NCBI GenBank assembly: GCA_011033025.1
Contig: WFMF01000341.1
Location: forward strand, 123,231-187,230
Source of the DNA: Beroe forskalii
Taxonomy: Eukaryota; Ctenophora; Nuda; Beroida; Beroidae
Direction of reading: 5' to 3'
DNA length: 64,000 bases
Part shown: in pieces, positions 1 to 45,922 of the stretch
Layout of the letters: each line of letters begins with the position of its first letter
Position numbering within the stretch: the first letter of the stretch is position 1
Translations under genes and position numbers: made by a program
The notes under the pieces: generated by a model
The model's input: only the letters and a program-made list of their open reading frames with translations
Database searches by the model: none
What the model was told of the DNA's origin: nothing

Positions 1-1448
1 CGTGACATGAGGAAGCTGGACTGACTGCAAATTATATTGCAACTATTATATATTGCAACTAATCAAAATCTCAGGATTTTCATTCTCTCTGCCGTAAATA
101 CTGCGTGTCGATGCAGTATATACTGACTGAGGGGCCCAAAATGGTAAACAAAAGTAAAGCTTAATAACTTTGGCTGCGTTCGAACTTTCTTTATGAAAAA
201 CAATTTTTCGGCCATATCTCCGCGCTTGGATCTCAAAAATGAATTTCAACTCCAGTTCCACGATGCCATGAAAATACCAAAAATTTTGAAATTTTCATTA
301 AATACGCAATGATGCAAACATCATGCTTATCTCCATATATATAACAAGATCTGATCTTGTGATATATTGTCACATTTTTGCGTCGCCAAAATACTAGAAA
401 TGAAATAGACGTATCTACAATGCTTTCGGGGCAAACTTAATGAAACTTCCAGGATATTTAGATATTTCGATCAAAGTTAGAGCATTGTGGCAATTATGAC
501 GGAATTTCATTTTTGGTCCCAAAACGGAGGTATGGCCGAATACGGAAGATCCGTTTTTTACCATGAAGCTTCGAACACAGCCAAGCATTACAGCATTACT
601 TTTGATAACTTTTTTGTGCCACCCGTTAGTACTTATAATTGTTATTAAAGTTTTACATATGTTTCAAATTCGCACGGGTGTTACGTACAGGAGCTGAGTG
701 CTTCTCTGAAGTGACAGTTCACAATATAGCTCGTATAAACGGGAGGATCACATATAAATCTACTCTCTTATACCCCAAAATGATATAAAACAGCTCGAAC
801 AGCTCGAACAGCTCGCGCAAGAAGACTCCCTGTCTAAATATCAGTAACTATCATCCACCATCCCCTCAAGAGGGAGAAATCTCATATATTTCAAATATAT
901 GTGAATTCACTTTAAACTGTTTATAATTACATATTATATTCATAGGTACGAAGAACGCACATATTATATATATAAATATTGGTACCAACCTTCGAGCAAG
1001 AGGTCTTTATCAGCAAAACTGACAGCCTTGCAAACGTTAAGAAGTTGAGTCAAACAATCACTCGGCTGTACCTGTATGAAATACAAATGATATATGATAG
1101 AAATTATACGATAGAGAGAGATTGTCGATATCAAGCTTTTAATCCAATTTTTATAAACATCGTTGATAATATCCGAGATAAATGATAAAAGTATTTGTCA
1201 GTCGTTCTTACAATCTTCATCTCTGTATTTATGATAACGAGCATGGCAAATATATATTTGCTTCAAGGATACTAAGATTATCATATATTGATATTTAATG
1301 TTATTCTCCATATGCGCATAAAGGTCTCTCTCAATATATTATTCTGGGTCTCTCTCTCTCCATCTCTTAACCAAGACCGGGGTTAAACAGGAGACCATTT
1401 CAGCTCCCTACCCATAAACCACTGCTTCACCATGATATATATATTTAA

Positions 1449-1525
1449 GAGAAATAGGCGGTGCAACGTCATCAACTCCCTTCATTGAGCTATGATAATG
1501 ACGTCATCCTACCCGCCTATTTCTC
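1449..1525. repeat. Short inverted-repeat element containing a CRE-like site
   Basis: Thirteen-base arms GAGAAATAGGCGG (1449-1461) and its reverse complement (1513-1525) enclose about 50 bases. The interior carries TATGATAATGACGTCA, and the consensus CRE palindrome TGACGTCA sits at 1499-1506. Part of this interior recurs inverted near 10636. It may be a tiny non-autonomous DNA transposon or a regulatory hairpin; no target duplication is obvious. Confidence 0.55.
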
Positions 1526-2027
1526 CTGCGCGGAGTATAATATAAGCTACGGCTGCTTCGCATAGTTAAGTGTTTTAATTTCAGACTAAACACGTCTACT
1601 TCAACTCTCTGCTGCGTTTTATAGAGCGAGCATCGCTGCCTGACATGTTTTACCACCGTAGTAAAATATAATTCAGGTTGTAACCTTGACAGGTAGTAGA
1701 TGTGATGCGGGAGTGACGTCAGCACCAGGGGTTTCAATGGAGCGACGATGACGTAAAAACCGCGTATTTTTTGGTTCACGGCGTATATATATATGTTTAA
1801 TTGTGTGAGATAAATTCACATTTCATAAAGATCAGAGCAAGGGGGTGAGACAGGAGCTCCCTGTTATATTAAACAGCCGCGATATATATAATGAAATCTG
1901 CTTTATAAATCATCATAGATCCATCATATACTCCTACTACTACTCGACAGTGTATGAGACACACGCTGAGGTGGGCAATGCTAACATTATATTACCCGTA
2001 TAGGTTCCTGAAATCGTCATGACAAGG

Positions 2028-2095
2028 ACCAATCACCAGCCGAGTTTACGATCTCAACTCGGTACTCGCGCACGACGATTGGTGAATGTCAAATG
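2028..2095. promoter_or_regulatory. Inverted pair of CCAAT-type motifs
   Basis: ACCAATCAC at 2028 and GATTGGTGAATGTCAAATG at 2077 face each other about 50 bases apart. The right half closely matches the 29-base CCAAT repeat at 61454-61539, so this is more likely a dispersed repeat than a chance pair. CCAAT is the known NF-Y binding core; whether it acts here is unknown. Confidence 0.4.
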
Positions 2096-2675
2096 AACCT
2101 TGGGGTAAGCTACTATAATATCGATACGTTATAGATCCTGACCGACTGACAGCAGTTAAAGGGAGTTGGTAGTTGAGATGGTGAAGGTTTTAAAATCATG
2201 TCACATTTTATTGCTGAAGAAATCGGTGAAATTGTTAAATGACTACGTTTCGGAGGGGTAGAATATCGCATGGTTAAGTGCCGTCCATTTGAAAATGAAC
2301 CATTCGAACATGGACCATTCGGAAAATTAGAAATAAAATCAATTTGAGTTCCTGATGTCACTCAGTATTGGGAGAACGAAATATTTTCCATCTCAATTCA
2401 AAAGGTGAAAGGACGCTGGCCATAGCAGGAAGGACGCTGTCCATGGCAGGAAGGACGCTGGCACAGAGAGTACGGTAGCGTGAAGGAACGAAGAGTAGTG
2501 GACGAAAGCTATCCATCCTAGCATCCTTGCACCCTCTCCCAAATCATTGCAATGGCAGTGCTTTCGAGCACATACTATTGGATATTGGTACACTATTAAT
2601 GTATCCCAATACAACCCATTATCAACCTACTAACCCTCAAGCAACCTTCTAGCGACTTGGTAACCTTCAAGCAAC

Positions 2676-2839
2676 TTAATCAGAAATAGGACGAGTAGAG
2701 TGGTTACGAACATCTTCAATTGTAACAATTAAAACGTCGTGTTCTTGTGATATTTCAATGAATATATCATTCATCATAGTCATACATTCTCAAATTTGAT
2801 TGTATAAAGTAGTGTTGTACTCGTCCTATTTCTGATTAA
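2676..2839. mobile_element. 164-bp MITE with perfect 22-bp terminal inverted repeats
   Basis: The ends are exact reverse complements over 22 bases, starting TTAATCAGAAATAGGACG at 2676 and mirrored at 2818-2839. The interior is non-coding. A stretch of about 32 bases of the inner right part recurs in inverted orientation at 12578-12612, so the family is dispersed. The TTAA at each tip could be a target duplication, but the superfamily is not determined. Confidence 0.75.
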
Positions 2840-2870
2840 ATTGACGAAGAAATCCCTATTCTACACACCA

Positions 2871-3012
2871 TTCAAGCAACTCACTAGCAACTTACCAACC
2901 CTCCGACTCTCTAGCAAATCTCCGACTCTCTAGCAACCCTCCGACTCTCTAGCAACCTACTAGCAACTCTCTAGCAACACACTAGCAACCCCCTAGCAAC
3001 CCACTAGCAACT
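2871..3012 (+). repeat. Degenerate CTAGCAAC tandem repeat
   Basis: About ten copies of CTAGCAAC or close variants are spaced by short pyrimidine-rich linkers such as CCTCCGACTCT. No coding content is apparent. Confidence 0.8.
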
Positions 3013-3078
3013 CACCTTCTTGTTAGCCAGCAGCATCTGTTCCATCAGCAGCGCCAGCGCATTGTAACCGTCGTGGTG

Positions 3079-3138
3079 TAACTGACTGAAATGGAAGCGG
3101 AGTTTAGATAACTGACTGAAATGGAAGCGGAGTTTAAA
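3079..3138 (+). repeat. 30-bp direct duplication
   Basis: Two adjacent near-identical 30-base units begin TAACTGACTGAAATGGAAGC, followed by a partial third copy of GGCGGAGTTTAGACCTT. It is a recent small tandem duplication. Confidence 0.8.
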
Positions 3139-6017
3139 CCTTGGGCGGAGTTTAGACCTTAGGCTAATAAGTGTGGGTTGAATAACCCCCTGTGATATTT
3201 TATTCAGAAAGATGATTCTGAATATTTCAAAAAATACCTAGAACTTTTCAGCTGGAAATTAAACTGGAAAATTCTGTGGTAATATTTTTGGAAAAATTGG
3301 AATTATCATTCCGAGAGAGGGAGTAGGATTTAGAAACATTTCCAATCATCCAATCAAATTCTAGATCTATGTTCCTGGTTGTCCACCACGAATAAATAAA
3401 ATGTCGATGTGTCTTAAAACCAATATATTTCGCGAACAAGAAAAACACCCATGTTTTATTTCGATTAAAATGCAGCTCTCGGTATTTACAGATGATTATA
3501 TTCGCTACTTTCACCCACGTCAATCTGTCTCTCTAGCAGTAGTATGAAGTTTATGAAGATGATAGTTCCCATGTATATAATATGAATGACAGTTCCTAAC
3601 ATGAGATAATATATATGATAAACAGCCTGGTGCAACCCCAAATCAGTCTAAATGCAGCCGTCACGGTGTCACGGAATACTGAGCACCCAGGCGTCAGCAA
3701 CACACCACTTTAAATAATGATAATGACGTCACAGAGGAATGCCGAGTGTTATAACTCGACTAACTGAACTCCCCGCATCAGACGGTAGTAATGAAGTGTA
3801 GATATAAAACTTACAACGAGTTCATATCGAGTTAAAGAGGGTATAATTAATATTTGTTTGTTACAATTTTACTGCGTGCTCGCAAGAGATATAGACGTTT
3901 CGGCGTCACCAATTCATGTTTCTAAGAAGTGAAACTGCGACTGATCTCGACCGTCCTTTTTTGTGTGGGAAGGGTAGTATAAGTGAAAAATTCTGCGGTA
4001 AAGTCTGGTAAATTCGACGATAAACGGATGCTATTAAGTTTATATTTTAAGTATCTAATAGCAATGTTTGAAATTTTACTCCTGTAAGTAATGTAAATGA
4101 TTTAAAGAATTCATTAATGAGGTAAAACTCCAGTGAACGCGAAAAATGATAAAAAATGTTCGTGCCTTGAGTGACATTAGCGGACGATATATTCTTGATT
4201 AATTGGGTAAACCGGTTGTTAAGATAATCTTAATAAAATTTGTTATTAAATAAATAAACCGCTGTCCTCTGTGGAAGCTAACGCTGTTCCTCTATGCTAA
4301 TGCTCTGACACACAGGGCCTTTTGCCTTCATTTTATATTTATAAAAGTAAATTAGATAAAGTTATGCTATTTTCTCGGTAACAATCGGCATAAAATATAA
4401 GAATATTTGCATTCCATCACATTATCTGTGATTTGTTTGAATATGTTAATTGAGTAAAATTGTCACGGGGGACACGCTCGGTTACCACAGAAACGAACAC
4501 ACTTGTGGTGCACTTATAAAACTTAAATCACCACCGCCAGAGGTAGAGAGAACAGATTGTAAACTTTTGTAATATTTATCTAATGAAGACACTCGATTAG
4601 TTAGGGGACAAGTTAGAATTCAATTAGGAGCAATTCTCATGGCAGTTACAACCGTTTGGTAGTAGGAGTGAGGAAAACGTTACTGGTGATCTCTGAGGTC
4701 TGAAACGGTTACTAGCCAGTGGCTAGACGTGATGCCCATAATTTCAAACATTCAAGAGGATATAAATTTGATCCTCGGGTAGTAAAAATATCGCAGAAGT
4801 TTGGATGTTGTTACCTTCGTAAGATTCTCGTAAAACGCGTCAGAGAAGAATCCGTAATCACCTCAATCACTTCAAATTCAACTTTTTCATTTCAATTTCC
4901 AGAACTTACAATTTCGAAACCAATGTGAGACAATTCGATAGTGGTTGTTAACCGAGATAAATTTGTCTGTTAATTTTACCAAAAACCTACAAATAGTAAA
5001 TTACTTCCAAAAAATTCCCAATCCTCAAGACCTATAGATCGTCGCCACGCATTTGTAAAATTGTTACTATCTGCTATCCAGTTTCAGCCTAAAAAACTAA
5101 CGCTGTGGCTCCTCAAATATAATCTCATTTACTCAAATTAGTTTAAATGCGAAAGTAAAAAAGTAAGAAACTCGATTTGGTACCTCTAACCTGTAGTAAT
5201 AACCATTGCCCCCAGCACTGGCTCGTTATTTCAACACTCTCAAGTAGCGCAATTCACCACCCAAATCATTAGTAAATCTTCCCTTGGCTGAGTCGGCCGA
5301 TTAAATTAACGGCCCATTATGTTTCTCTGGAAGAGGGAATGAAAACAGGACGAAAATATTTCCATTGTGGGCTCCCAGTATTCACTAAACACGTGCAGAG
5401 GAGGAAAGAACGCCGAATTTGGGGGCGCTGGGTGAAAAATAGGCGTTTCAACGAGAACAGCTTCAGCATTTTAATCTATGATAACGATGCCATTCTCAAC
5501 CGCCTAATATTCTCACAAGAACCATGCTAGATGTACATAACAACCCGGTTGTCTCGCGTTAACCAAATGAGAATGATATAAAAAGATAGTTTAAAAGCAC
5601 CTCGACAACAACTCACCAGTTATATAATCTAGAAAATGTAATTTATAAAGGAGCACGCACGTTCATGAGTCACGAATATCATATCACGATGATGGAAGTT
5701 CGTTAGTTCCAGGATAAAGTATTTGTACAGATTGTATCAAATGTACCGATACTACAGCGGACATTATATTTGGACAGTGACATACTGACATACTCAACAC
5801 TTCGAGGGCCACTTAGGTACTTAACGAGCTGATTTATCTGATTCTATTAATCTAATATGTTAGTCCGCTGTGCCGTTAATATAATTTCAATTATTTACTT
5901 TTAACGATCGGATTGCACTGTATGACGGGTAGTAGGTTATATGATTTCAGAAAATAGTGAGACTCTTTCTTTCTCTCAGGTATTTCAAACGGTTTTACCC
6001 ATGAACAGGCAAATTTG

Positions 6018-10192: not shown

Positions 10193-13000
10193 CAAGGCAC
10201 TGGGACACACTGGCACGGTGTCTAAATTCCAGGCGTTACCATGGTGACCATGGGGTAAGCGGGTCTGACATAATCGGGGGTAGACATTACTGCAACTATA
10301 CAACAGACGAATGTCATAGGACAGACTGCACAAATGCACGGCTCTGATTGGCTCACATGATTTACATTAGAATGTCCCATGGATTACAAGGATAAAGGGT
10401 AGCTTTTGTTAGTTAATACAATCCATATAAATAGTTAATACACCTATATATCGCAATATATTACGATTACTAATGCAAATCATTGGAAATTAGCCGGGGG
10501 ATTGGAGAGGGCTTAGTGCTCTGATTAGAACAATCTGACAAAATATCATCAATATTTTATATAGCGAGCATGTCCCCGGGTTATTGGTGTATGTCGCGCA
10601 CTTTACCCACTTTCCACAAAATATACCCGTGGGTATGACGTCATTATCATAGCTTAACATGGAGTGTTGATGACGTTTGAGAAGTCTGTGTGTGGGGTGC
10701 AGGGCGCTGCTAAGGGGGCAGCACTTGTGTGCTAAGAGCCAGCCCCCTAATTCCCAGCTATTTACTTTGTAACTTGGAAGTTAACGGTAATCCGACTTCA
10801 GACACACTCAGACACACCAAGTTATTGAAGTTCCAGAACTCTATTGCACCCACGCCGGTGGTGTTAAGACAAGCCTACAAATCTCACCAGTAGAGCTTGG
10901 CAAGACTTATCGATCACGCCGGATTTTGAAATATAGCAGGAGCTGAAAATGGTAAAACGTATAATAACGGTCGTTCTTTTGGTAAAATAATGAGCAATGA
11001 CCTTTGAAGAAAGATTCCATAAATAATTCGATTAAACCCATCTTCTCAGCAATTATTCTCAGCAATTAGCGATACTTAGCTACAAAGTCACTCAAAGTAA
11101 CTTTCGTTCCACTGAAGAAAAAAATCATGTCTTCGATTAGAAGTATCGAATCTCATTTGTCACAAAAAAGTATAAAACACCTCAAAATCTCTATCTCTCG
11201 CGCGAACGTTATAAAACATTTAAAACATCCACCGATATACGCTGCACACGTGACATATTCTATAGAATAGCTGCTAGTGCACCACAACAGGCAATTAATT
11301 TAAAAGTAGCAAGTCAAGTAATACCGAACATATTACCAACTACCCAGAAAAGTACATGATAAAGTAAAACACCTCTTATCTATATAGCTCGCTGATAACA
11401 GAAAATATCTATCGTATGCGATAATATGTTATCATATTAAATAAATACTCCATATATATTGGCCTATCATAACCAGTAGAAGCTCTCTCTCGTCCAGTAG
11501 CAGCTATCAGTACTTCTGTTCATTTTACCACCCCTCATTATTAATTAGATATATCTCTAAAAACCACTGCTTCTTCCTTCTGTAATGGCATACTGTAGCA
11601 GCTCAGAGATCAATGAAATATCTATGAGCGGGGAACAGGAAAATAAAAGGAGGTATTTTATGTCAGAAATTCACCATTTTAAGTCAAGATGTGGACGTCA
11701 CAATCCGGCGTCTGCTATTTGATTGAGACCTTTTATTAATACCTACGTGTTGTATTATATAATGTGTTTAAGGTTTTACAAAAAAAAGAGAGAGGAGAAA
11801 CATTCGTCAGAAGTTCGTGACGGCGGATTTGGTTTACCATTATCCACGGTCTTTTCTCCTTCGGTGATATATATTAGTATTGCGTGTGGCAACAACAACA
11901 ACATGGGCATCATCGTAATGATATGGATACATATAAATGAGAGGCGTACGAAAAACATAGACGGGGTAGCGTCGTTATCGCACTATTTAAAACTATGATA
12001 ATGACGTCATAACGAGCTAATTATTTTCGGTTTTTGGCGTTGAGATGGGCAGGTTTATGGAAGATGCACCTTGTCAAAGACGTGGGAAAGGACGTATCCT
12101 GAGTAGTAAATAGATTTATCACTCAAATGGAGAGCAGGTTATGTAACGTGTCAATTGTCAAAGCTTCGCTCTGATTGATATATCCATTCATATACTGCAG
12201 TCCTCTGAGTGTTATTATAATGTGGCCCCTTATTTATCTTTATTTGATGGCAAAGAAAGGGACACTTCACTGTGTAATGGAGCATCGGAACCCTCTAAAC
12301 TCAAGATTATTTGATTTTGTACTTGATACTGTATCAAGTAAAATAATCAACATACCCCTTGCACTCAATGTAATAAATCACAATAATCTAAAAATACAAT
12401 GCAAACTGCTGCACAAATAATAAAATATGATATAGGAGGCTGTTTAGTCCCAAATAACTGATACAACAAACAGCAACGGAACGTGATCTGACGAATTTGA
12501 TACATTGTCGGAGAGCATCGCGCCATTTAATCGGTCACGTAAATTAAGCAGTTGATGAATTATAAGCAGTGATATGAACTTTACAACACTACTTCAAACA
12601 ATCAAATTTGAGATTTCCTGATGGCGTTGAAGTTTCAACGAAATTAATTGAATTTCAGAAAAAGAAGAGAATACAGAAAATTTTTCATTTTATTATGCGG
12701 CTCATGAACAATTATCCCATATTTCAGTTGAGATATGAATATCATCTATAAAAATCAGGGATAAGATGGTCATGGCAGAATAAATCTATTATAGTTGAAC
12801 TAGGTGGAGCTATAAACACATGTGTTGCTCCCGCAATGAAACCAATACTGAGAATAAAGACTCAGATTTACATTGATTAGTTTAAACATAAAAGAAATAA
12901 AAGCAATTTCACCTGTATAAGCCGTTACTTCAAACTCAATGAAGGTAAAAGATTCCGCGTTATTCTAAGACGATCCCAGTAAGTACAATAACACGTGTGC
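10193..13000. other. Non-coding DNA with CRE-like repeats and a MITE fragment
   Basis: TGACGTCA occurs at 10636 and 12002, each next to the TTATCATAG block also seen near 1490 and 3716. A fragment of the 2676-2839 MITE lies at 12578-12612 in inverted orientation. The frames of 60-91 codons here are low-complexity and are not supported as genes. Confidence 0.4.
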
Positions 13001-17775: not shown

Positions 17776-18779
17776 AATAAACTCTCTCGAAACATACTTG
17801 TTCTCACCAAGAGAATATACATATAATATATCATATATAAATATGAAAATGATTGATTCAAGGAATAACCAACAGACAAACAAACTACTTTACACGATAA
17901 CAACTTAACTTACCCCACTGGGGTACAAACTCCTCTAATGGAAGTAGAGTTCTCCTTAGTTCTGTTAATCCGCCACAACTGTCCTAGGGTTTCCATCTAG
18001 ATATTATCTAGATAAGATTATCTAGACAATTTGCAAAAATTCGTTATCTATTTATCTAGATAATTTGTACTAGATATCTAGATAAATTTCATATCCCTTT
18101 GCCATGAAATTTCTGCTAAAATCGCCATTATTCCTGAATTTCTTCAATAATTTTCAAATTTTCAAAATTTCTGATCTGTTCATTTTTCGTACCCATTTCG
18201 GAGATCTTAGGTAGTAAGACAATTTATGGCTATGCATAGGACTTGGGCAACTCATTTCATGATTATATATGGACATAGTTCAATGTTTAGGGCCCTCAGG
18301 TTCATGGGCAGGCTGTTTGGCTTCAAGTACTATCTGTTTTACTGATGATTTGACCTTTGTTAAACTGATATGAATAGCTACAGAATTAGAAGGCGTTGTT
18401 CAAAGTATCTTATCACATCTTACAAATCGTCATTTGCCACTTTAACGAAAGTTAAATACCTATCACTGTAACACTCGCTATTCTGCTTCCAATTTATGTC
18501 AAATTATTGACGCCCTTTGACGAAAAGTAGGCTGTAAATATGTACGAAAGTAACCTCCAGCTATGGCAAAGTGATTGCTTATTTGAAAGAAACCTAAAAA
18601 CGGTCAATATTAATGCATTCAACTCAAGAGTCAAGAGTCAAGGAACTGTCAACTTTGGTTTGTTATGATGATTTAATACGAGGGAATTTGATTCCTTATT
18701 TTTCATTCAGTTATTCTCAATTTTACCAGCTTCCAGCAACTCCGAGGCCATCATCATGAAATTTACTTTATTTCCACAT

Positions 18780-21700
18780 ATTTGGTGGACAGCAGTTGGG
18801 TGCCGACTGTAGTATCACTTTGGTGATCTGTCCTTCCTCAGATGGTTCTAGTGTTACAGGTTATAAAGAGTTGCAGTGATGTTGGGGATTCTAAGCAGGC
18901 AGAGCCCCAGGGACACAGCAGACGAAGGAGATGCAGAGATTTCCTACGATGCTACACAGACTCCAGTACGTACAGCATTTCATGCACCAACCCCACCCAA
19001 ACCTCGTAGAAAGAGTCCAGGACGTCCAAAGAAGAACCAGGTAACAAATTCACTTGTTGATAACAAAGACATTGAAGGGAATGAAGAGGATGATAACTGC
19101 CCTGTTTGTAGGAGTAGTGTTGCATATGATGTCAAAGGACTGATGTGTGACAAATGTAAGACATGGTTTCATTGTTCATGCATTTTTATATCAGATGAAG
19201 AGTATAGTGTTCTTAGTGACTCTGAAAGTAGTTGGTTTTGTGTAGGGTGTCAAGCAGGTTGTGAAAATCAGTTGACATGGGGACAGTTGAAAGGTGAAAT
19301 GCTCATCAATAGTCTGGTGAAAAGTGCATATCTAGAAATCACCAAGTGGAAGAAGAATTTGTTTTTGTTGCCAAGAGGAAAGGCTGGGATTCATTTTATC
19401 AACGAAATATCAAGACTCATTTGCCTTTTCACTGATGAAACTGCTTGGAATGGAATTGCACTATCATTATTGCACATCTTTATTCCACTAATGCTTCAAA
19501 AACCTTCAGCAACTTCAAAAGCAAAGGTCAATGCAAAGCTTCTTGCAAGTAGACTGGTTAAATGGAGTGATGGTGATTTAGTAGGACTCATGGAAGAAGC
19601 CAGAGAAATTCAGTCCCGTGTATTGAAGGTAGTCAAGAAGAAGGAATCAAGTTGCCACACAGCTTTCTCAAGGCTCATGTTGCTTGGTCAAGTTGGTAAG
19701 GCTATAAAGCTTATCAACAGTAATGGGGACGTTAAAGGTGTACACAAGTTAACACGTCAAGTGAAAAGTGTTTTGGAGAGCAAGCATCCTGATGGTAAAG
19801 TGGCACCCTCTGAGTTGAAGTTAAAGATCACAACCCCTGCTCCACAATCTGTAATATTTGAACAGATTGATGCCATCTCCGTTCACAAGACTGCTAAAAC
19901 TGTGCATGGTTCAGGTGGACCAACCCATATGGATGCTGATGCATGGAGACATATTATCTGCTCCAAATCATATGGCAAAGCATCAGAAAAACTCAGTGAG
20001 TCTATTGCTGAGCTTGCTAAGCATATCAGTACCAAACATGTAGAACCTTCAGCACTAGAAGAATTTCTCTCATGCCGACTGGTCCCCCTGGACAAAGGTA
20101 ATGATCACAAGGGTGATATTGGGGTCAGACCAGTGGGTGTTGGTGAGGTTCTCAGGAGAATTGTGGGTAAATTGGTTGTCAATGTGCTGAAATCGGATAT
20201 ACAGAATGCAGCAGGCCCTCTTCAAACATGTGCTGGATTGAAAAGTGGAATAGAAGCTTCAATACATGCCACACGGGAAGAATGGGATCTACCAGAGACT
20301 CAGGGTGTGCTCCTTGTTGATGCAGATAATGCATTCAATTCAATCAACAGAAAGCTTGCTATTCATAACATCAGGGAACTCTGTCCTCCATTCCATCAGT
20401 ACATCAGTAACACATACCAGAGACCAGCCAGACTTGTTATATGTGATGGCTACAAGACTGATTACATGGCATCTGAGGAGGGTTGTACTCAAGGAGATGT
20501 TGCTGCAATGGCTTTTTATGCACTTGGCATAAAACCACTTATCTCAGATTTGGCAGCCAAGACTGATCCAGCAAGCTGTAAACAAATATGGTATGCTGAT
20601 GATTCAACAGCATTTGGTAAGCTGATGGAGATGCGCAAGTGGTGGGATATTTTGTGCTCTAGGGGTCCACTTTATGGCTACTATCCCAAGTCATCCAAAA
20701 CAATCCTTATTGTAAAAGAGCATTCCTTGCAGATGGCTAAAGAAATCTTCAGTGGGTCAGGCATCAAGATAACAAGTGATGGTGATCGTCATCTGGGTGC
20801 TGTCATTGGAACTGAGGAATTCAGGGAAAGGTATGTGAGTGACAAAGTTTCAAACTGGATTAAAGATGTGGAAGCTCTGTCTAACATTGCCTTGGATGAT
20901 CCTCAAGCAGCATATGCTGCCTACACTAAGGCACTGTGCCATAGGTGGACTTATCTTCAACGTACTGTACCAGAGATATCACATCTTTTTGCTCCACTGG
21001 AACATGTGATCAGACATAAACTGATCCCTTCATTTATTGGACGGGAGGTTTCAGACACAGAGAGAAGCTTATTCACTCTGCCAGTACGCTTAGGAGGACT
21101 AGGACTTTGCAACCCAGTTGAAATCTCACAGGCTGAATACAGAGCATCAGAATTGGTAACAGCCAATCTCAAGGCTATGATTAAAGACCAAAGCATGACC
21201 CTTACAGGTTATAAAACAGAATCTGTAGCAGAGGTTACATCTGAATTGTCCAGAGAAAAGGAGCTAAGATTGTTAAGGAAGTTTTCAGAAATCAAATCTG
21301 GTATAACTGATGAACACTTGGTAAGGTGTATCACCTTAGCCCAGGAAAAGGGTGCTGGGGCATGGCTTAATGTCCTTCCTGTTGGATCTCTTGGTTGGGT
21401 ATTGAATAAAGAGGAATTTAGAGATGCAATCAGGCTCAGATATGGATGGCAGATACCCAATATCCCAGCATACTGTGTATGTGGATCAAGAAATTCGGTA
21501 GACCACACCTTAACATGTAAAAATGGTGGATACCTTATTTTTAGACACAACAAAGTCCGTGACACCAATGCTGAGTTTTTGAAGGAAATCTGTCAAGATG
21601 TCAGAACTGAACCAGAACTTATTCCAATTGACAATCCAAACCAACTACCAGGAAACACAATGGAAAGAGCTCGCCTTGACATCTCTGCTCGTGGGTTATG

Positions 21701-22463
21701 GGGACCTTTTCAGAGAACCATGTTTGATGTTCGAATCTTCCATCCAAATGCAGATTCATACAAGAATCGTGATATCAAACAGTTATACAGTCAGCATGAG
21801 AACCTCAAAAAGAAGGAATATGAGCAAAGAGTGATACAGGTAGAGAAAAGTAGTTTCACTCCATTGGTGTACACCACTTCTGGAGGAATGGCCCCAATGG
21901 CTAAAGCATTCCATAGAAGGGTTGCAGAACTTGTGGCTGAGAAGAGAAGTGAGGAGTATAAAGATGTGATGAGTATGATGAGGACTAAACTGTCTTTTGC
22001 CTTGCTTAAGAGTGTTCTGGTGTCAGTCAGAGGCTCTAGGGGCAAATCACCTAGAGTAGCAGAACTTCCAATATCATGTTTATCATTTAACCTGGTACCA
22101 AAAGGCCTCACTTATAATTCTTTTGTTCCAAATAAACCATAATTTTCAGTCTTTCTTCATGAGTTTGTAGATGTCAATTGACATTGGTTTTCTTTATATA
22201 ACTTAACTGTTTTTATTTTTACTATTTGAAGTTTTGAATTTTTAGTTGTTTATCTAGGCAGGCAGTACTTATTTAGTACTGTTTCTAATTTAAATTATTA
22301 TTGACTGTGAGATCTTTACACAGGTAAAATTTATCAAAATCAGGTTTTTTTACTTTTTAACTTTTATCTAATCTTATTATAATTTCAATCTAGTTTATTG
22401 AAAATTTTGACTGAAAAAAAAAATAATTATTATTACTATTATTATTTCTTTTAAGGGAAAAAA
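18780..22463 (+). mobile_element. LINE (non-LTR retrotransposon) with AT-hook, PHD and RT
   Basis: Comparison with the two empty hAT copies shows the insertion exactly. The flanking ATTTCCACAT is present at 18770-18779 and again at 22464-22473, a 10-bp target duplication. The body is about 3684 bp with a roughly 100-base 5' leader, one long frame, and a 320-base AT-rich 3' region ending in ATT repeats and an A run. Having no terminal repeats, a variable-type duplication and an A-rich 3' end, it fits target-primed reverse transcription. The frame is open throughout, so the copy looks young and possibly full length. Confidence 0.85.
18879..22142 (+). CDS. LINE polyprotein: AT-hook, PHD finger, reverse transcriptase, zinc knuckle/endonuclease-like
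   Basis: A 1087-residue frame starting at the ATG at 18879. An AT-hook-like KSPGRPKK lies at residues 45-52. A complete C4HC3 PHD finger follows: C74, C77, C90, C93, H98, C101, C121, C124. The reverse transcriptase has VDADNAF (Asp481), GCTQGD (535-540) and the catalytic YADD box (572-575). The C-terminal part has C866-x-C868-x7-H876-x3-C880, then RHN, RLDI (Asp934) and FDVRI (Asp950) with Lys962. This order resembles the CCHC plus PD-(D/E)xK restriction-like endonuclease of R2/R4-type LINEs. No N-terminal APE endonuclease is seen. The enzyme would nick the target and copy its RNA in place. The RT call is firm; the endonuclease call is inferred from motif order. The clade name is not known to me. 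Confidence 0.85.
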   Translation: MLGILSRQSPRDTADEGDAEISYDATQTPVRTAFHAPTPPKPRRKSPGRPKKNQVTNSLVDNKDIEGNEEDDNCPVCRSSVAYDVKGLMCDKCKTWFHCSCIFISDEEYSVLSDSESSWFCVGCQAGCENQLTWGQLKGEMLINSLVKSAYLEITKWKKNLFLLPRGKAGIHFINEISRLICLFTDETAWNGIALSLLHIFIPLMLQKPSATSKAKVNAKLLASRLVKWSDGDLVGLMEEAREIQSRVLKVVKKKESSCHTAFSRLMLLGQVGKAIKLINSNGDVKGVHKLTRQVKSVLESKHPDGKVAPSELKLKITTPAPQSVIFEQIDAISVHKTAKTVHGSGGPTHMDADAWRHIICSKSYGKASEKLSESIAELAKHISTKHVEPSALEEFLSCRLVPLDKGNDHKGDIGVRPVGVGEVLRRIVGKLVVNVLKSDIQNAAGPLQTCAGLKSGIEASIHATREEWDLPETQGVLLVDADNAFNSINRKLAIHNIRELCPPFHQYISNTYQRPARLVICDGYKTDYMASEEGCTQGDVAAMAFYALGIKPLISDLAAKTDPASCKQIWYADDSTAFGKLMEMRKWWDILCSRGPLYGYYPKSSKTILIVKEHSLQMAKEIFSGSGIKITSDGDRHLGAVIGTEEFRERYVSDKVSNWIKDVEALSNIALDDPQAAYAAYTKALCHRWTYLQRTVPEISHLFAPLEHVIRHKLIPSFIGREVSDTERSLFTLPVRLGGLGLCNPVEISQAEYRASELVTANLKAMIKDQSMTLTGYKTESVAEVTSELSREKELRLLRKFSEIKSGITDEHLVRCITLAQEKGAGAWLNVLPVGSLGWVLNKEEFRDAIRLRYGWQIPNIPAYCVCGSRNSVDHTLTCKNGGYLIFRHNKVRDTNAEFLKEICQDVRTEPELIPIDNPNQLPGNTMERARLDISARGLWGPFQRTMFDVRIFHPNADSYKNRDIKQLYSQHENLKKKEYEQRVIQVEKSSFTPLVYTTSGGMAPMAKAFHRRVAELVAEKRSEEYKDVMSMMRTKLSFALLKSVLVSVRGSRGKSPRVAELPISCLSFNLVPKGLTYNSFVPNKP

Positions 22464-22964
22464 ATTTCCACATTTGTTGACTCTTTTCCGATGAATAATG
22501 CAAGTATTAATAGCAACTAATTGGTAGATAATGTTGTTACTTTATGATGGGAGAATTTATGGGTGATAACTGATTTCAACTCAATCAAAATGAAGCAATG
22601 AATGTCCTGAACTCTATTCAAAATCCTAATATCCTCATGAACTTTTTGGTGGCCATTAATATCATCCATTTCAATAACCGACAGCTGGTTATAGTATGAT
22701 GTTCCACTGCAACAGGTGTGCATATTTTCTAACGTTGAAAATTGTGTCAAATTTGGATAAATTTCGGAGTCAAAAATTATCTAGTTTATCTAGATAATCT
22801 AGATAATGGCGAAAAAATTATCTATTTATCTAGATAAAAGATTTCAAGTAGATAATGGAAACCCTAAACTGTCCCAATAATCCTTCTTCCTACTGCTTCC
22901 TACTGCTGTCCCGATGTCACTGCAATTATCATACTAGCTAAGGTAGAATGTGGTGAGATACCAA

Positions 22965-24029: not shown

Positions 24030-45922
<21,893 letters not shown>

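Follow-up and report, generated by a model that had tools for sequence, protein, structure and literature searches.

A ctenophore LINE with an N-terminal PHD finger, a predicted C-terminal restriction-like endonuclease, and relatives that begin with spliced leaders

We analyzed a 64,000-nucleotide stretch of the Beroe forskalii genome (Ctenophora; assembly GCA_011033025.1, contig WFMF01000341.1, positions 123,231 to 187,230 of the forward strand), hereafter the window, whose own numbering is used throughout, and in it a long interspersed nuclear element (LINE) at 18780-22463 with a single long open reading frame (ORF). Our results very probably describe a ctenophore non-long-terminal-repeat retrotransposon of the restriction-like endonuclease (RLE) kind, in which one protein would bind the element RNA, nick target DNA, and copy the RNA there, with an AT-hook and a PHD finger docking the complex on chromatin. 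The RNA that is copied would have been trans-spliced by the host, and the copy in the window would be a 5'-truncated one within the remnant of a DNA transposon.

The ORF (18879-22142, + strand; ATG at 18879, stop at 22140-22142) fills the element and encodes 1087 amino acids, or 1088 in the ORF list, where the entry is counted from an upstream GTG. All of the motifs named by the initial annotation, which was made from the DNA letters alone, were located within this frame, all on the + strand. These are (i) the AT-hook KSPGRPKK at residues 45-52 (19011-19034), assigned by motif and without a Pfam match; (ii) a C4HC3 PHD finger at residues 74-124 (19098-19250; Pfam PHD, E 1.4e-6, above the curated cut-off); (iii) the reverse transcriptase (RT) core (RVT_1, 20109-20624; Pfam, E 2.4e-10), with its YADD motif at residues 572-575 (20592-20603); (iv) a CCHC knuckle, C-x-C-x7-H-x3-C, at residues 866-880 (21474-21518); and (v) a putative RLE signature (21543-21890) comprising RH (889-890), R932-x-D934, D950, E974, K977-x3-Y981, and G1002, with ARLDI...FDVRIF lying between residues 931 and 954. 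These findings support the reading of a one-ORF LINE that joins an N-terminal PHD finger to the C-terminal residues of an RLE-LINE endonuclease. Furthermore, an apurinic/apyrimidinic (APE) endonuclease was matched by Pfam in none of six proteins, and the window protein gave neither a protease or RNase H match nor, apart from the PHD finger, any N-terminal DNA-binding family above the Pfam cut-off.

The genome that we searched (216 Mb, 1134 contigs) contains at least 47 stretches that match the element, some of which are two pieces of one copy; this number is a lower bound because only 42 of 845 candidates were scored. Eight stretches, including that of the window, run for at least 1000 residues without a stop, and one of these (L007) lacks eight RT residues. 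By DNA, the window family includes copies on contigs C110 (97%) and C814 (96%), which match bases 1-3604 of the element, as well as another C814 copy split in two, the 5'-truncated C658, and short pieces, and the remaining families are ∼70% identical. As is usual for LINEs, there are truncated copies and target duplications of 10-14 bp; the latter were found in 7 of the 14 insertions examined. Among ten frames, the median ratio of nonsynonymous to synonymous substitution (dN/dS) was lowest in the CCHC and nuclease region (0.041), followed by the RT core (0.065), the PHD finger (0.09), the linker (0.115), and the N-terminus (0.21) (22-39 of 45 pairs per region, leaving out those with dS of 0.05 or less, undefined values, or fewer than 20 codons). 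These values are rough because dS is near saturation (medians 1.3-1.7), which counts against reading them closely; they nonetheless place the PHD, RT, and nuclease regions under purifying selection. Given at least 47 stretches, eight long ones without stops, and this selection, the signal goes beyond chance. Three scans of viral contigs yielded no relative, and a scan of prokaryote genome contigs yielded one, L032 (JAAXHO010000193.1), in a Poribacteria metagenome-assembled genome (MAG) with no second relative in it. L032 is evidently animal DNA, likely host contamination in the MAG of a sponge symbiont, and is called the sponge-associated contig below.

A complete C4HC3 finger is present in 12 of 16 aligned protein rows, the other four beginning past the finger or being broken there. 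The core of the AT-hook, GRP(K/R/S)K, is found in 9 of the 11 rows that reach this region; L007 has GRRRK instead, and L016 has lost the AT-hook. The PHD finger also scores above the Pfam cut-off in L029 and L049, and, as a point against its assignment across the family, it falls below the curated cut-off of 24 in L003 (18.5) and L009 (20.5). The top matches of the window finger in the PDB are the PHD fingers of MLL1 (PHD3), Pygopus, and DIDO1, all of which read methylated H3K4. From its family and the selection on it, we infer that the finger may bind histone tails. A serious possibility, which we rate a little below probable, is that it is instead a plain nucleic-acid-binding or protein-binding zinc module for ribonucleoprotein assembly that reads no histone tail. 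This would fit with its seeming dispensability for mobility, as the N-terminus of L032 is different and no PHD finger was seen in the fetched open frames of C302, C470, C41, and C858 (copies that may be 5'-truncated), and with a tyrosine, aligned by eye with the MLL1 motif DYESK, that occurs only in the window copy. Against it stand the identity of the best PDB matches and the strong selection on the finger, whose W(F/S)H motif retains its tryptophan in each of the 12 rows.

Relatives of the window protein vary at the N-terminus. In C500, Pfam matches two PHD fingers (4.9e-7, over two stretches), and C347, C303, and C153 have one each, by eye. L032 is 38-40% identical to the window protein over ∼1000 amino acids and has the RT, CCHC, and nuclease residues in common with it, but carries a Cys-rich N-terminal stretch in which Pfam finds no PHD finger; because the same body thus occurs without a PHD finger, the N-terminus is modular. 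In our tree, the PHD-bearing rows lie on one side of a branch with weak support (51/77), and their split from C302, C470, and C858 is firm (100/99). A single origin of the finger would be compatible with this tree, at the low support of that branch. A p-AU of 1.2e-7 against a single PHD clade was set aside, as C216, a near-copy of C347 with an unrecovered N-terminus, had been placed wrongly outside the group; two rows labeled 'unk' were uncounted in that test. In the label test that we retain, C216 is inside the PHD group and C794 is uncounted. Loss or a second gain of the finger is also possible, because the RT of C500 is slightly nearer to the sponge-associated row (53% identity) than to the window (48%).

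PHD fingers are known in ORF1 of CR1/L2 LINEs, including apparent single-ORF elements (PMC4120745; papers are cited by PubMed Central number, and what we say of them extends to excerpts), as the initial annotation had noted. There, too, the finger stands at an N-terminus, and the likeness extends to the best PDB matches, which in CR1/L2 include MLL1 (3lqh) and Pygopus (2vpb). In contrast, the elements of PMC4120745 are APE-endonuclease LINEs, whereas ours ends in an RLE signature and has no APE match by Pfam. In its excerpt, the same paper proposes general targeting for these ORF1 fingers and is aware of no functional study. It was fair to call the present combination uncommon, since the literature yielded no RLE LINE with a PHD finger among the matches listed, which is weak evidence of absence.

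To compare C-termini, we aligned 13 clade members, namely the window, 11 other genomic places, and the sponge-associated contig. The proline of an LP motif, the four CCHC ligands, and all residues of the signature given above are invariant in all 13, and the leucine of LP is replaced by isoleucine in two. C470 and C858 read ARPDIRARG...FFDIK, a literal PD...DXK. In the RT, D574 and D575 are present in all 13 members and D481 in 12, the remaining row not reaching that position. An excerpt of PMC5678591 describes the nuclease residues of RLE LINEs as RH, R-(P/L)-D, D, and a displaced catalytic K followed by Y at +4, and our invariant residues agree with that description except in knuckle spacing and in GXW. 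Three observations speak against an RLE assignment: (i) the knuckle is CX1CX7HX3C in all 13 members versus the published CX2-3CX7-8HX4C; (ii) GXW after the fourth strand is found only in C500 (as GGW), 1 of 13; and (iii) structure predictions of the whole protein and of the C-terminus, made from two sequences, reached mean predicted local distance difference test (pLDDT) scores of only 30.5 and 38.2, which leaves the PD-(D/E)XK fold a predicted one. We treat the knuckle spacing as descriptive rather than defining for a broad RLE group, and the element is filed in no named clade. The conserved residues suggest that both the RT and the nuclease would be active.

A PDB profile search with the RT and C-terminus returned six matches, three R2 proteins (E 2.5e-7 to 4.3e-5, through the RT part only) and three chitin synthases (E 0.33), so that all RT relatives in this set are R2 proteins. 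R2 and other RLE LINEs (PMC5678591, excerpt) resemble our element in having one ORF, an RT, a linker with LP, a CCHC knuckle, and C-terminal nuclease residues. They differ in that a PHD finger and an AT-hook here replace the N-terminal zinc finger/Myb of R2, as well as in knuckle spacing, the near-absence of GXW here, the failure to see a common target among our copies, and an RT identity to R2 of ∼22%. Unlike R2 in 28S rDNA, the window copy sits in an element with terminal inverted repeats (TIRs), and 18 upstream flanks of its relatives, compared with each other rather than with rDNA, are mutually unrelated. Utopia/NeSL elements, as described in an excerpt of PMC4640811, are alike in their single ORF, N-terminal zinc-binding module, RT, zinc finger, and RLE, with an N-terminus that varies by lineage; here, however, a PHD finger stands in place of their zinc finger, a protease or RNase H is unmatched by Pfam, and no shared target was seen by eye, in an inspection that did not include a search for U2. 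It is possible, though we lean against it, that Repbase already names a clade of this domain order to which the element belongs (e.g., CRE, R4, NeSL, or HERO). Its body plan is that of RLE LINEs, and proteins with an RT of this kind are frequent in gene sets from cnidarians and sponges. The distance from R2 and the lack, among the matches listed, of a PHD finger in an RLE LINE argue the other way. A tree rooted with R2 had an outgroup branch too long to trust.

The 5' ends of the relatives are the second main result. Among 30 fetched loci, 16 begin with one of a few very similar leaders and two more with a partial leader; leaders are also found on C110, C814b, C347, C303, and C153. In the closest long sisters of the window copy (C110, C814a, and C814b), the element begins with the leader, which in C110 lies 163 nt upstream of the point where the window copy starts. 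Two exact leader strings have 249 and 152 genomic occurrences, versus 0 for a reversed-pattern control, and at eight places viewed the leader is fused to differing sequences, five with LINE-like long ORFs. A leader end followed by a GTAAG donor occurs at 52 places, mostly clustered, and the three such loci that we read have the downstream stem-loop and T-rich site expected of leader RNA genes. Clusters of these putative genes were seen at L054-L056 and on contigs C1036, C758, C913, and C381, some at ∼720-bp spacing. In the LINE copies, leader and body are joined exactly at the position of the GT donor in the leader genes. The leader also resembles that of another ctenophore, Hormiphora (GAGTTTCAAACTTTTCAACACTACTTTAAACAAATTAATTTGAG; PMC8527503, excerpt).

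Close relatives can carry different leaders, as do L005 and L020 (93% identical) and L010 and L014 (95%). Because the leader stands on full-length copies and differs between such relatives, the RNA that was copied appears to have been trans-spliced by the host; judged from these junctions, a trans-spliced RNA is probably what is reverse-transcribed, to its very end. Duplications of 11-14 bp enclose leader plus body in six copies (C110, C814b, L003, L006, L010, and L021). Two counts run against this interpretation: 14 of the 30 loci lack a full leader, for which 5' truncation is a candidate explanation, and 7 of the 11 leader-bearing loci tested (of 16) have no adjacent duplication, the repeat at L004 being a nonadjacent one.

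We consider it highly improbable that the leader reflects target choice, i.e., that the elements insert into spliced-leader genes like the nematode NeSL (PMC4640811, excerpt). Leaders and clustered leader genes are indeed both present in this genome, and RLE LINEs are often site-specific according to the same excerpt. However, the sequences that precede the leader in 18 copies resemble neither one another nor those upstream of leader genes, apart from one 15-nt match, the six target duplications take in the leader together with the body, the junction falls precisely where leader genes carry their donor, and the leader is fused to unrelated sequences as well, including other LINE-like ORFs. The enclosing duplications and unrelated flanks contradict a NeSL-type insertion, and we retain copying of a trans-spliced RNA as our explanation.

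Fossil leaders have a parallel in the DinoSL-tagged retrogenes of dinoflagellates (PMC12014239 and PMC6050394, excerpts), where a leader is likewise preserved at the 5' end of reverse-transcribed copies; in contrast, the tagged copies here are LINEs themselves, and in an animal. Among the matches listed, the literature on leaders and retrotransposons yielded dinoflagellate retrogenes and no animal LINE with a genomic leader. In Hydra, ∼30% of Iso-Seq reads from transposable elements carry leaders (PMC12220107, excerpt). An Rfam search with 301 bases around the 5' end gave two matches, both far under their gathering scores. C153 has two leader ends in tandem. Tandem leader pieces precede PHD-bearing relatives at L076 and L064, as would be expected had an older tagged copy received a second leader, and other LINE-like ORFs (L033-L036 and L039; CR1-like ORF1, SGNH/AlkB-like, by eye) begin with the same leaders. 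The window itself holds leader-like sequences, CAACACTACT....ACAATCAAATTTGAG, at ∼12573-12612 (+) and ∼2789-2828 (-), which are fused to other sequence and are probably the ends of further retrocopies.

The borders of the window copy were defined by empty sites. The window has six occurrences of the TIR end TAGGGTTTCCAT, which form three inverted pairs. Two pairs bound uninterrupted copies of a TIR element (34962-36149 and 41173-42357; 99.6% identical to each other), and the third (17985-22866) bounds the same element with a 3.7-kb insert. The left part of this host (17985-18779, strand unassigned), with TAGGGTTTCCAT ends and a TA duplication, is ∼99% identical to the two uninterrupted copies, and the right part (22464-22866, strand unassigned) supplies the rest of the interrupted ∼1.18-kb element. 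When aligned to the empty copies, the left and right parts share 10 bp, so the insert spans 18780-22463 (+, 3684 bp) and is flanked by the target-site duplication ATTTCCACAT (18770-18779 and 22464-22473, +, 10 bp each). These borders agree to the base with those first annotated, and the LINE in the window is a progeny copy, truncated at its 5' end, that inserted into what is left of a DNA transposon. The notion that RT and TIRs form one element, suggested by the perfect TIR ends and TA duplication around the LINE, has next to nothing left to it, as it is contradicted by the two copies without insert and by the separate target duplication of the insert, and the exact TIR end occurs at the window locus only among the 30 LINE loci. 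The three copies of the TIR element lie within 25 kb and contain TATCTAGATA-type internal repeats; the element is probably a recently active non-autonomous DNA transposon.

The description of the element as intact holds for the ORF but not for the element, in which ∼163 nt are missing at the 5' end and the last 80 nt are foreign. Compared with C110, the remaining 5' untranslated region (UTR; 18780-18878, +) lacks the spliced leader (41 nt) and the first 122 nt of the body. The family-specific 3' UTR (22143-22383, +) ends where alignments to L011 and L027 (96% identity) stop, and the common 3' UTR continues past 22383 in C110, C814b, L011, and C291, from which the window copy departs. L027 and C1 follow the family slightly beyond this point and then also diverge. 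The 80-nt tail (22384-22463, +) contains an ATT run, and its start is also found in another repeat on contig C267; the tail would be accounted for by an RNA, read-through or chimeric, made from a source copy that was itself truncated.

The life cycle that we propose would begin with transcription of the element and trans-splicing of the transcript by the host, followed by translation into one protein that would bind the element RNA. The N-terminal AT-hook and PHD finger may dock this complex on chromatin. By analogy with the family, a C-terminal PD-(D/E)XK nuclease would nick the target DNA, and the RNA would be copied from the nick (target-primed reverse transcription). Completion of the second strand would leave the short duplication. 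Histone-guided targeting by the PHD finger and AT-hook is offered as a hypothesis. The insertion sites did not bear out a preference for AT-rich DNA, which the initial annotation had named beside histone marks as a possible guide. No common target was apparent by eye among the copies. The 100-nt 5' flanks of 19 copies had a mean GC content of 32.8%, whereas the window has 39.4% and none of 2000 samples reached so low a value, but against more distant flanks of the same loci they were lower in 10 of 14 cases (14 of the 19 copies; p = 0.09, not significant). A preference for AT-rich targets was therefore dropped.

A broader scenario, which we put forward as speculative and rather unlikely to hold in full, is that of an unnamed, ancient ctenophore clade of RLE LINEs with exchangeable N-terminal targeting modules, one branch of which gained one or two PHD fingers, so that a single polypeptide would read chromatin, cut, and write. 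For propagation, the element would depend on host trans-splicing, with a spliced leader on each new copy. The leader end, with a branch-point-like CTAAC in one leader type followed by GAG, could serve as acceptor for the next leader, so that an inserted copy would acquire a new 5' end from any transcript at its landing site and could do without a promoter.

R2-type RLE LINEs are under development as gene-insertion tools. A chromatin reader in the place where R2 has its zinc finger/Myb (PMC5678591, excerpt) makes steering by histone marks directly testable, and relatives with two PHD fingers, none seen, or another Cys-rich module would help in such a test. The fossil leaders indicate retrotransposition of trans-spliced transcripts in a ctenophore and provide a simple marker for full-length copies. 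Furthermore, some of the 718 leader loci that PMC8527503 (excerpt) counts in a different ctenophore may be retrocopies rather than leader genes.

Two further observations concern the genome and the window at large. Mitochondrial COX1 in the same genome is best read with TGA as Trp and AGA as Arg, and this code, taken together with the Hormiphora-like leader, identifies the host as a ctenophore. At ∼37800-45500, the window contains low-complexity Arg/Ser/Glu-rich and Pro-rich open frames, by eye, which are probably exons of a host gene.

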